DNA of 64,000 bases, taken from NCBI GenBank assembly GCA_021773645.1, contig JAJFJU010000015.1, positions 248,001-312,000 on the forward strand, given 5' to 3'. Every line of letters starts with the position of its first letter. Position 1 is the stretch's first letter. A model generated the notes under the pieces. It was not told the DNA's origin and did not search any database. It saw only the letters and a list, made by a program, of their open reading frames with translations. The translations under genes and the position numbers were made by a program. This DNA comes from Gammaproteobacteria bacterium. Lineage in GTDB: Bacteria; Pseudomonadota; Gammaproteobacteria; HK1. Positions 51,643 to 54,894 of this stretch are shown here, piece after piece.

Positions 51643-53012
51643 ACCCCAACTCCAGCAGCACCCGTGGCATTGGCAAGCAACTGCTCAAGACCTGTCAGGC
51701 TTTCATTAAATGAAACCGGCTGATTCATTTCCTGGCGCACAAAACCCAATAGACTGGGATACATACGTATGGCTTCATCAAGCTGCTCATTGCTCCCTGC
51801 GGTATAAGCGCCCACGTTGATCAAATCGTAATTATCCTGATAGGTGGAATAAAGTTGGCGAAAATGCCGAGCCTGCTGTTGGTGCTGGCTCTCAGCGATA
51901 TTGGGCATCACCCGGCTGATAGAGGATTCCACATCGATGGCAGGATAACAGCCCTGCTCGGCCAGCCGGCGTGATAGCACGATATGTCCATCAAGTATCG
52001 CCCTGGCCGCCTCGGCCAATGGATCCCCCTGGTCATCTGATTCAGTCAATATGGTATAGAAGGCCGTAATGCTGCCCCCTTCCTCCCCACCGTTCCCCGC
52101 CCGCTCCACCAATTGGGGCAGACGCGCAAACACTGAAGGCGGATAACCTCGGGTTGCTGGCGGCTCGCCAATTGCCAAGGCAATCTCCCGCTGCGCTTGA
52201 GCAAAGCGTGTCAAGGAGTCCATCAGCAGCAGCACCCGAAAACCTCTGTCCCTAAAGTACTCTGCAATACTGGTGGCCAACATTGCCCCATGCAGACGTA
52301 CCAGCGGCGGCTCATCCGCCGGAGCCGCTACCACCACCGCTCGGGCCATACCCTCATCACCCAGGATATCGGTAATAAATTCCTTCACCTCGCGGCCACG
52401 CTCACCAATTAGGCCCACCACCACAATATCGGCGCTGGTAAAGCGGGTCATCATTCCCAGCAAGATACTTTTGCCTACACCACTACCGGCAAACAAACCC
52501 ATCCGCTGCCCCTCACCCACGCTAAACAGCGCGTTGATGGCACGGACTCCTACATCCAGCGGCTGATGCACTGGGCGCCGAGCCATGGGATTAATATTGT
52601 GCCCCGACATCGGAAAATGCTCACTGGTGTCTAACGGACCCTTACCATCCAACGGCACGCCAGTACCATCCAGCACCCGCCCAAGGAGGCCATCACCCAC
52701 CTTAATTTGGCCACCCCGACCCACTGGAATCACCCGCGCATTAGGGGCCAGGCCACGCACATCACCAATGGGCATCAATAATAATTTATCTCCGGAGAAT
52801 CCCACTACCTCCGCCTCTACCGGCACGCCACCGGGCCGTATCACCCGGCATTGATCGCCGATAGCCGCCTGGCAGCCCACTGATTCTAGGGTCAGGCCCA
52901 CCATGCGTTTCAATTTGCCTTCCACTACTAGGGGACGGGGATTGCGCGCGCGCTGTAGATACGCCTCGAGCCGCTGACGGGGCATGCGCCGTGGTGAGGC
53001 CTTAGCGTTCAT
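51639..53012 (-). CDS. fliI: Flagellum-specific ATPase FliI
   Basis: Export ATPase of the F1-beta type. I place the start at ATG 53012, which has a GGAGG element six bases upstream; the open frame begins two codons earlier. 457 residues. Seen: Walker [18 protein letters not shown] near 170-185, the [13 protein letters not shown] block, [37 protein letters not shown] (Walker B and the conserved FliI signature) near 255-290, and [20 protein letters not shown]. Starts inside the end of fliH. Confidence 0.96.
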
Positions 53013-53676
53013 CTTCACCCTCCGGTTGGCCGCCGAGCACGTCGCTGATAATGACCGCCATACGGCTCTTCAGGCTGGCATCGATATGCGAGCTATCGGT
53101 TTCTATGCGACAAGCACCTCGCTCCAAAGTGGCGTCCTCAGAAATTTCCCAGCGCTGTTCATCCTCATTGACAGACATGGCCTCAGCCATCAGCAGGGCA
53201 TCTTGAGGATGTAAATGGACACGAACACCGCGTGCCGACACCGGCAATACGGCAATCGCACCGCGCACCGCATGCAATACGATCTCCGGGTCGATCGTTA
53301 TCTCGCGATAGACCAATTGCTTAGCCACCTCCATCGCCAGTTCCACAAGGATCGTCTCTGTTTCCTGTTCGAGTGCTTGCAAGGGGCCACTCATTTCCTC
53401 GAGTAATTGCTCTGCCCTGGCGGCCAAAGGTTGTAGCTCCTGCGCCGCGGCCTGTCGCCCCTCTTCCAGTCCCTGCACAAAGCCTGCCGCGCGTCCTTCT
53501 TTGTGTGCCTCCGCCCGCGCCTGTTGCTGCAAGCGCTCCATTTGTGCTGCCGTCAGTGCCGACAGGCGATGGCTTCCCGCAGCCCCAGAAGCGCCCCCGC
53601 CAACGACCGGAAGTTCCCATCGTTCATAAGCACTTAGGGCTTCTTTATCATCCTTCATGGAAGAACTCATTGGCAT
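53002..53676 (-). CDS. fliH: Flagellar assembly protein FliH
   Basis: Negative regulator and peripheral stalk of FliI. About 224 residues. Several in-frame starts (53691 GTG, 53676, 53670, 53658) are possible; none has a strong Shine-Dalgarno. Seen: a glycine-rich turn, helical [37 protein letters not shown] with the GxxxG-type repeats of FliH, and the C-terminal ATPase-binding domain with [29 protein letters not shown]. Upstream lies the 161-bp inverted-repeat element. Confidence 0.9.
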
Positions 53677-53723
53677 TTCTAGGCAACGCACTCACGATAA
53701 TAAAAAGACCCGCGGCTTAACTT

Positions 53724-53884
53724 GGAGCCTGTCGGATTTAGGCGCTCGTAGCGAGGGAAAGTCATTTTGAGACAGATTTTCGGGTCGTTTGAGGATAATA
53801 ACCGAGCTATTAGACGAAAAGGACCGGAAAATATGGCCAAAATGGCTTTTCCGCAGCAGAGCAGTCCTAAGTCCGACAGGCTCC
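53724..53884. mobile_element. 161-bp inverted-repeat element (MITE-like) between fliG and fliH
   Basis: Left arm GGAGCCTGTCGGATTTAGG (53724-53742) and right arm CCTAAGTCCGACAGGCTCC (53866-53884) are inverted repeats matching at 18 of 19 positions; with the outer CTT/CTA they reach about 21 of 22. The interior (about 120 bp) has no gene, but has small inverted repeats of its own (CGCT/AGCG at the left, GGAAAA/TTTTCC at the right). The right end coincides with the fliG stop codon. No transposase is encoded. Best explained as a non-autonomous transposable element or structured repeat inside an operon; a clear target-site duplication is not seen, so the family is open. Confidence 0.72.
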
Positions 53885-54894
53885 TAGACAAACTCCTCAC
53901 CACCCTGTCCTCCAAGCATGATTTCACCATCATCGGCCAAGCGGCGTGCAATGGTGACGATTTCTTTCTGCGCCCCCTCAACCTCACTCAAACGTACCGG
54001 GCCCTTGGCCTCAAGATCATCCCGCATCATCTCCGCCGCACGCTTGGACATGTTATTAAAGAATTTGTCCTTCATGCCCTCATCAGCACCCTTCATGGCC
54101 AGCAACAAACTCTCCGAGGAAACTTCACGTAACAGAGTCTGGAAGCCCGCATCATCCACCTCTATCAAATTATCAAATACGAACATCTGGTCCTGAATTG
54201 ATTGACTAAGATCGGCATCTGCCTCCGTCATCTTCTCCATCAAGGCACTGCTGACAGAGGCATCGACAAAATTGAGCAAATTGGCAGCTCGTTTAACCCC
54301 ACCCACTGCCGCAGACTGAATATTGCTAGCACCGGAAAGTTGCTTCTCCAGCATAATGTTGAGTTCCTGCAAGGCACCCGGCTGCACCGAATCCAGCGTG
54401 GCAATGCGCATCATGATGTCGACACGCATATTCTCGGGTAATAGCGCTAGGACCTCTCCGGACTGATCGCCATCCAAGTAGGAAAGCACAATGGCAATGA
54501 TCTGCGGATGCTCGGCACGAATCACCTCGACCACTGCCCGTGGCTCCATCCATTTCAGGGATTCCAGCCCTTGGGCATTGCCGCCCAATAAAATCCGGTC
54601 AATCACATTGCCGGCCTTGTCCTCTCCCAAGGCATCGACAAGCACCGTTCGAACATAGCTCTCCGAATCCATCCCCAAGGCCGTGTGGCGACCCACGGAT
54701 TCGAGGAAATTCATCAGCACACCGTCCATCTGCTCCTGGGACACATCACTTAGGGCCGCCATGGCACCACCCAATTTCTGCACCTCTTTTGGACCCATGT
54801 GCTTCAGAATCTCAACCGCATGGGACTCCCCCAGAGAGAGCAGCAAAATGGCTGCACGATCCAGCCCGGAAACTTGTGCGTTTGCCTCAGCCAC
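53884..54894 (-). CDS. fliG: Flagellar motor switch protein FliG
   Basis: C-ring rotor protein that contacts the stator and MS ring. 336 residues. Seen: N-terminal GLDRAAILLLSLGESHAVEILKHMGPKEVQKLG, the EHPQIIAIVLSYLDGDQSGEVLALLPE block near 125-155, and the C-terminal torque helix FVFDNLIEVDDAGFQTLLREVSSESLLLAMKGADEGMKDKFFNNMSKRAAEMMRDDLEAKGPVRLSEVE with conserved charged residues. Ends GGEEFV, as usual. Its stop codon (TAG, 53886-53884) touches the inverted-repeat element. It begins 8 bases inside the fliF end. Confidence 0.97.
   Translation of the reverse strand: MAEANAQVSGLDRAAILLLSLGESHAVEILKHMGPKEVQKLGGAMAALSDVSQEQMDGVLMNFLESVGRHTALGMDSESYVRTVLVDALGEDKAGNVIDRILLGGNAQGLESLKWMEPRAVVEVIRAEHPQIIAIVLSYLDGDQSGEVLALLPENMRVDIMMRIATLDSVQPGALQELNIMLEKQLSGASNIQSAAVGGVKRAANLLNFVDASVSSALMEKMTEADADLSQSIQDQMFVFDNLIEVDDAGFQTLLREVSSESLLLAMKGADEGMKDKFFNNMSKRAAEMMRDDLEAKGPVRLSEVEGAQKEIVTIARRLADDGEIMLGGQGGEEFV

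Follow-up and report, generated by a model that had tools for sequence, protein, structure and literature searches.

A 161-bp MITE between fliG and fliH belongs to a family with a covarying folded core and ends like those of IS1182-family insertion sequences

The window analysed in this study is a whole stretch of 64,000 nucleotides from a gammaproteobacterial genome, designated G000. It carries a flagellar operon, and the gene assignments of the initial annotation agreed with the Pfam matches, which gave FliE, FliF, FliG, FliH, a FliI-type ATPase, FliJ and FliK. As shown in Table 1, a full-length MITE lies between fliG and fliH. The interval between these two genes (192 bp, 53692-53883) is the largest from fliF to fliK. 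It had been described as the only large gap in this region, which was slightly overstated because a gap of 105 bp is also present between fliJ and fliK.

The 19-bp inverted arms of the element match at 18 of 19 positions, as first described; such a pair is expected 0.007 times by chance, by an estimate for 64 kb and 500 spacings. When extended to 22 nt, the arms are 91% complementary and enclose a spacer of 123 nt. The secondary inverted repeats reported inside the element were also found, as a pair at 53755-53769 and 53838-53852. The + strand of the MITE is defined here by the orientation of the family covariance model, with a GCGAG loop at the left. The window copy scored 155.4 bits against this model on the + strand and 74.3 bits on the - strand, and its + strand is antisense to the flagellar operon. 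The strand read with the operon folds at -69.9 kcal/mol. The RNA fold of the 161 bp was better than 200 of 200 shuffles on both strands, with z-scores of -7.8 for the operon strand and -11.9 for the opposite one. At its right edge the element ends at the fliG stop codon, as had been noted: the final base of the element supplies the G of this TAG (minus strand, 53886-53884), whose TA belongs to the target sequence.

Table 1. Positions of the element, its parts and neighbouring genes in the window, and of copies elsewhere in G000 that carry a nested palindrome
Feature	Position	Strand	Basis
MITE, full length, 161 bp	53724..53884	+	own-genome blastn and covariance model
Left terminal inverted repeat, type 1, GGAGYCTGTCGGAYTTAGG	53724..53742	+	
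Right terminal inverted repeat, type 1	53866..53884	-	
Target copy at the left edge, CTTG, differing from CTAG by one base	53721..53724	.	sequence and comparison with other copies
Right-edge CTAG copy, holds the fliG TAG stop (53884-53886, minus)	53884..53887	.	
fliG, upstream gene in the operon, stop codon inside the target site	53884..54894	-	Pfam FliG_N, FliG_M, FliG_C
fliH, downstream gene	53002..53691	-	Pfam FliH
Loop 1 left, GTAGCGA	53748..53754	+	conserved loop; position hand-counted from alignment A1
Loop 1 right, GCAGCA (family GCAGTA)	53853..53858	+	conserved loop; position hand-counted from alignment A1
Loop 2 left, GAGAC (family GAGNC)	53771..53775	+	conserved loop; position hand-counted from alignment A1
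Loop 2 right, GGCC	53835..53838	+	conserved loop; position hand-counted from alignment A1
Loop 3 left, GAGGA (family GAGGC)	53791..53795	+	conserved loop; position hand-counted from alignment A1
Loop 3 right, GACGA (family AACGA)	53813..53817	+	conserved loop; position hand-counted from alignment A1
G000 copies with REP-like palindrome	L019 C19:75326-75533; L020/L058 C13:79252-79458; L021 C11:51308-51517		

A search of G000 with the element revealed 18 further full-length copies, so the element is multicopy. The blastn search gave 45 matches, comprising 19 full-length elements when the window copy is counted, and broken or longer ones. Arms with up to two mismatches occurred 54 times in G000, compared to 3 times for a reversed control. 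Two congeners, G001 and G002, gave 25 element matches each, and in both of them the fliG-fliH junction aligned without the element. We joined the flanks of the 18 full copies and used them as queries: 16 of the 18 sites gave one uninterrupted alignment in at least one congener, with small gaps near the join in some, and L007 and L016 were the two sites that did not. Certain sites of G000 were filled in the other congener, for example that of L017 in G001 and that of L009 in G002, where one end of an element is present. The differences between empty and filled sites among G000, G001 and G002 indicate that the insertions vary among species of the genus. The L017 site is filled in G000 and G001 (C9:80634-80794) and empty in G002 (C8:44394-44580), and lineage sorting, precise loss and a second insertion are candidates for this pattern.

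The element is thus short with terminal inverted repeats, has dispersed copies and empty sites, and has ends in common with an autonomous element. At 161 bp it is too short to encode a transposase of its own. The initial reading of the 161 bp as an insertion was supported by the copies, the empty junction in the congeners and the insertion sequence with the same ends described below. A regulatory structure that had always belonged to the fliG-fliH junction could also account for the strong fold, the position between co-directional neighbours and the end at a stop codon, but it would be expected neither to be absent from this junction in both congeners nor to occupy 18 unrelated places in its own genome. 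We regard this explanation as highly improbable. A native element is refuted as an ancestral feature, and a role adopted later is conceivable.

The full G000 copies are 76-95% identical to the window copy, which indicates that movement in this genome was not recent. Pseudomaricurvus alcaniphilus (G382) holds about 32 copies, nearly all near-identical and 163 bp long, with 32 forward and 33 reverse arms. The near-identity of these copies suggests a recent burst of movement, and this is a good genome in which to seek an active helper. Three G000 copies (Table 1) carry a REP-like palindrome of the CTACATGGATGTAG type, nested at the same place beside the GTAG of the right loop, and a diverged REP-like palindrome lies at that place in L106 and L120, which are elements of two other taxa. 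Another nested palindrome (TACCTACAGGGATGTAGGGT...) lies near loop 3, at a shared place in L023 (G000 C8:33643-33806) and L024 (G000 C22).

The edges of the copies were then compared. In P. alcaniphilus, 14 of 16 distinct copies had perfect CTA and TAG edges, and the other two were one base off. Across a wider set of 99 places, both CTA and TAG were found at 41, TA at the left edge at 65 and TA at the right edge at 68. Empty sites hold CTAG where they are legible, for example GCTAGC at the L003 site in G002. These results show that the insertion target is CTAG. Since CTAG is palindromic, duplications of 2 bp and of 4 bp look the same. CTAG is rare in the window: it occurs 90 times, where base composition predicts 243 occurrences and a Markov estimate 114.

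The CTAG target contains TAG and is regenerated on insertion, which places the end of the element at the fliG stop. Exactly this placement at a TAG stop was seen for 6 of the 19 G000 copies and 30 of the 99 places. The survey of insertions started from 108 items, of which 99 were counted after dropping those less than 300 bp from a locus end and those with repeated flanks, and genes in these counts are longest-ORF calls rather than annotation. Special targeting of stop codons was rejected: the 30 of 99 places compare with 24 of 100 non-coding CTAGs in the same loci (24 at stops, 76 intergenic; p 0.34). Coding CTAGs were strongly avoided, with 1 of 99 insertions in coding sequence as against 215 of the 315 CTAGs of the same loci (p about 1e-37). 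The other 98 insertions lay outside coding sequence, about half of them between co-directional genes. The frequent exact placement of such elements at stop codons is therefore explained by the TAG within CTAG.

The initial annotation had envisaged a full-length insertion sequence with the same ends. Such elements were found in the IS1182 family, but none in G000 itself. In L142, a contig of a Synergistaceae MAG, an arm GGAGCCTGTCGGACTTAGG flanked by CTA lies just upstream of an IS1182-type transposase frame. The frame is ended by the contig edge; its match to the IS1182 transposase model covers the first third of the model and scores below the full-length cut-off, and it also matches the DUF772 domain. 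Plasmid-borne relatives of the L142 protein are annotated as IS1182 family. Among 11 near IS1182 loci, 7 had G(C/G)AGYCTGTCGGACTT-like sequences at both ends, flanked by CTA and 1,547-1,641 bp apart, and 4 had one end only, including L142 and L263 at a contig or record edge; these end calls allow up to two mismatches. Among the 36 IS1182-like loci scanned, those less than about 50% identical to the query were mostly without such ends. G107 holds both the MITE and an IS1182 element with both ends (L266) in one genome. A search with a partial 164-aa query found no IS1182-type transposase in G000, G001 or G002, which suggests that the helper is missing from the genus as assembled. From the matching ends and the CTAG target, we infer that the MITE is mobilised by an IS1182 transposase.

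We also considered an IS630/Tc1-type MITE with a TA duplication as the source. TA is present on both flanks in most copies, as such an element would leave it. However, PF13358 was not found in G000, the flanks are CTAG rather than TA alone, and the ends are those of IS1182, so that an IS630 origin was rejected as having very little probability. Carriage by plasmids or phages was rejected after nucleotide searches with one family member, in which 72,556 plasmid records yielded a single partial match and 50,697 phage records yielded no match.

To describe the family, we used both the arm and a covariance model built from 42 elements. Of the 369 class genomes, 42 contained the arm with one position free. 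The arm was also present in at least 114 contig stretches, which include isolates of Gammaproteobacteria, Massilia glaciei and Geotalea toluenoxydans as well as MAGs of further phyla, certain of whose assignments may reflect contamination. Among the matches listed, and independently of any model, 72 arm pairs spanned less than 400 bp, and the arm-to-arm length of 50 of these was 161, 162 or 163 bp. Since the length varies from 161 to 163 nt, no reading frame is kept across the family. The covariance model matched 88 of the 369 sampled class genomes, in a scan that scored up to seven candidates per genome and thus gives lower bounds for the counts per genome. It also matched 52 of 398 phylum genomes, the majority of which belong to a single family in another class. 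This family, f207, accounted for nearly every out-of-class match among the matches listed, with many genomes at the maximum of scored matches. Rfam gave no match at the window stretch, where weak ones fell far below the gathering scores, nor at 16 other loci.

Alignment A1 was prepared from 47 aligned full-length elements, of which seven were dropped by eye: L117 and L135, whose interior was not clearly alignable, and L124, L166, L172, L174 and L176, which nearly duplicated other rows. The alignment excludes elements with lengths of 62-138 and 164-327 bp, except L143 (164 bp). L117 and L135 have the same arms, and their core is not clearly shared, which counts against a universal core.

RNAalifold predicted 57 pairs, 37 of them with compensatory change, in counts that ignore kinship. 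In the fixed structure, 92.9% of cells paired, compared to 76.1% in shuffles, and pairing dropped to about 50% when partners were slid by one base. Cells with double changes numbered 384 against 134.9 in shuffles, and the covariation score was 0.482 against 0.185 in shuffles and at most 0.136 when slid; kinship is ignored in both comparisons. The two interior helices showed double changes in 29 of 29 pairs. Double changes were present in 41 of the 57 pairs in a larger set of 91 rows, which are partly the same sequences and were fitted to the model. The stems are interrupted by three asymmetric internal loops, which are 85% identical as against 68% for the interior stems (p 6e-6), where the columns of loop 1 include a two-pair helix. 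Among the 42 rows, perfect complementarity was seen in 0 for loop 1, in 1 for loop 2 and in 0 for loop 3. Conserved loops that are not complementary, together with covarying stems, argue for a constrained fold rather than arms copying each other. On this comparative evidence, the interior of the element is best described as a conserved, covarying hairpin across the family.

These data bear on a simpler explanation, that the element is an ordinary IS1182-derived MITE whose interior similarity comes from recent descent and from arm correction of the palindrome by quasi-palindrome template switching. Copies within one genome are related, and template switching can correct the arms of any palindrome. 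On the other hand, subfamilies show GC, CG, AU and UA at the same pair, and the mismatched loops, which arm correction would erase, have persisted and are better conserved than the stems. The length of 161-163 nt is also steady across phyla. We consider this explanation improbable.

The strand on which the fold acts was examined by counting G.T and A.C cells. The ratio was 188:75 over all rows. By columns it was 29 to 5 in the first set and 21 to 15 (p 0.41) in rows outside the model, from which duplicate rows and one reverse-strand match had been dropped. The greater tolerance of G.T hints that one strand folds, but the columns from rows outside the model give this no support, and the strand preference is weak.

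A fold that serves host expression would give a different meaning to the same structure: insertions at gene ends would be harmless or useful in mRNA, for example through RNase III cleavage, and would be kept by host selection. The almost exclusively non-coding positions, about half between co-directional genes, fit this explanation, and the hairpins of Correia and ERIC are described in PMC10969869 as affecting mRNA. Orientation selection by transcription was rejected, however, with 26 sense and 24 antisense insertions relative to co-directional neighbours, even though the two strands differ in fold stability, and the share of stop codons is what non-coding CTAGs predict. Since there is no orientation preference relative to genes, a role of the fold in host transcripts is unlikely, and we judge host selection to be a rather unlikely explanation of the core. 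The absence of orientation preference and the insertions in many unrelated places suggest instead that the fold is kept for the spread of the element. Most probably the fold, in RNA or in single-stranded DNA, helps the element to move or to gain a transposase, although this is less certain than mobilisation by IS1182.

The same core was found with other ends. Type-2 ends, GGAGGCTGTCCGAGAATAG, were present on it in L356, L362, L364, L366 and L374, and L378 carried GGAGGCTGTCCGATAATGA at both ends. An IS1182-like element in L271 is bounded by GGAGGCTGTCCGAGAA, which lies at 89 and about 1907 with CTA flanks, and its transposase shares 33% identity with the L142 protein. By sequence, the second end type matches a different IS1182 element, and L378 probably represents a third end type on the same core. 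In a core-only tree, type-2 elements fell within an 18-tip group alongside type-1 elements, with a support of 0.64. The L378 core was 82% identical to that of type-1 L188 and at most 68% identical to other type-2 cores. The core-only tree, with its low support, and the core identities of L378 suggest that the ends were changed at least twice while the core already existed.

Several known systems resemble this family in part. IS1182-family insertion sequences, such as ISAzo1 and its relatives, share the G(C/G)AGYCTGTCGGACTT-like terminal repeats and the CTA/TAG flanks, but they encode a transposase within a length of about 1.55-1.64 kb, and the ends inspected are without the MITE core. ERIC of enterobacteria is an intergenic imperfect palindrome of similar size, with GCGAG at the left and CGCAG at the right by eye; its ends and target differ from those of the present family, and homology was rejected because the family model gave two E. 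coli ERIC copies (L350 and L351) no more than 0.4 bits. RUP is another short hairpin-forming MITE found near genes. As described in PMC10969869, multi-copy hairpin MITEs near genes, including within operons, are already known, and Correia repeats of Neisseria and QMITE are likewise short hairpin-forming MITEs near genes. Chunjie, a MITE of Geobacter uraniireducens, also lies within an operon, which is undisturbed according to the title of the Chunjie paper; its description sets it apart from the present family by a variable size of 178-235 bp (PMC10969869). The Thiomargarita MITEs differ in having 10-bp or TATAG repeats, as far as PMC4853749 describes them. In the open-access text searched, four 14-mers of the arms did not occur and no description of the present MITE family was recognised. 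The searches of open-access papers turned up no MITE core that is kept across phyla by a covarying fold and whose end types match those of more than one IS1182 element. As a MITE the window copy is unremarkable, and it is the family that is unusual.

We consider it very likely that the 161 bp is a non-autonomous MITE that an IS1182-family transposase moved in trans into a CTAG overlapping the fliG stop codon. In such an insertion, CTAG would be remade at both edges, and the stop would survive as TA from the target and G from the element. The fliH gene is uninterrupted, with the fliG-fliH junction longer by the element alone, and the transcript of these two genes would carry the element as a long interrupted hairpin. 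An influence on mRNA stability or on the ratio of FliG to FliH, as first proposed, is conceivable; our guess is that any effect on fliG and fliH expression is mild and occurs via RNA processing at the hairpin. The fold would be retained since it is useful to the spread of the element, as RNA or single-stranded DNA. A further proposal is possible and decidedly tentative: the core may be a selected folded single strand, RNA or single-stranded DNA, by which a host partner or IS1182 transposases are recruited. It may form an ancient non-autonomous lineage that outlives its helpers, with the 161-163 nt length and the three asymmetric loops retained in different phyla and the ends exchanged to fit the local IS1182 subgroup.

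MITEs are usually viewed as short-lived debris of one insertion sequence. The present family contrasts with this view, as one folded core of near-fixed length is found in many genomes with end types that correspond to more than one IS1182 element. Should movement require the fold, the family would be a case of a DNA transposon in bacteria that relies on a structured single strand. The family supplies natural variants of stems and loops with which the capture of a transposase by a non-autonomous element could be tested. If the folded core does recruit helpers and swap its ends, the family would be a DNA transposon counterpart, in bacteria, of SINE-like parasitism.
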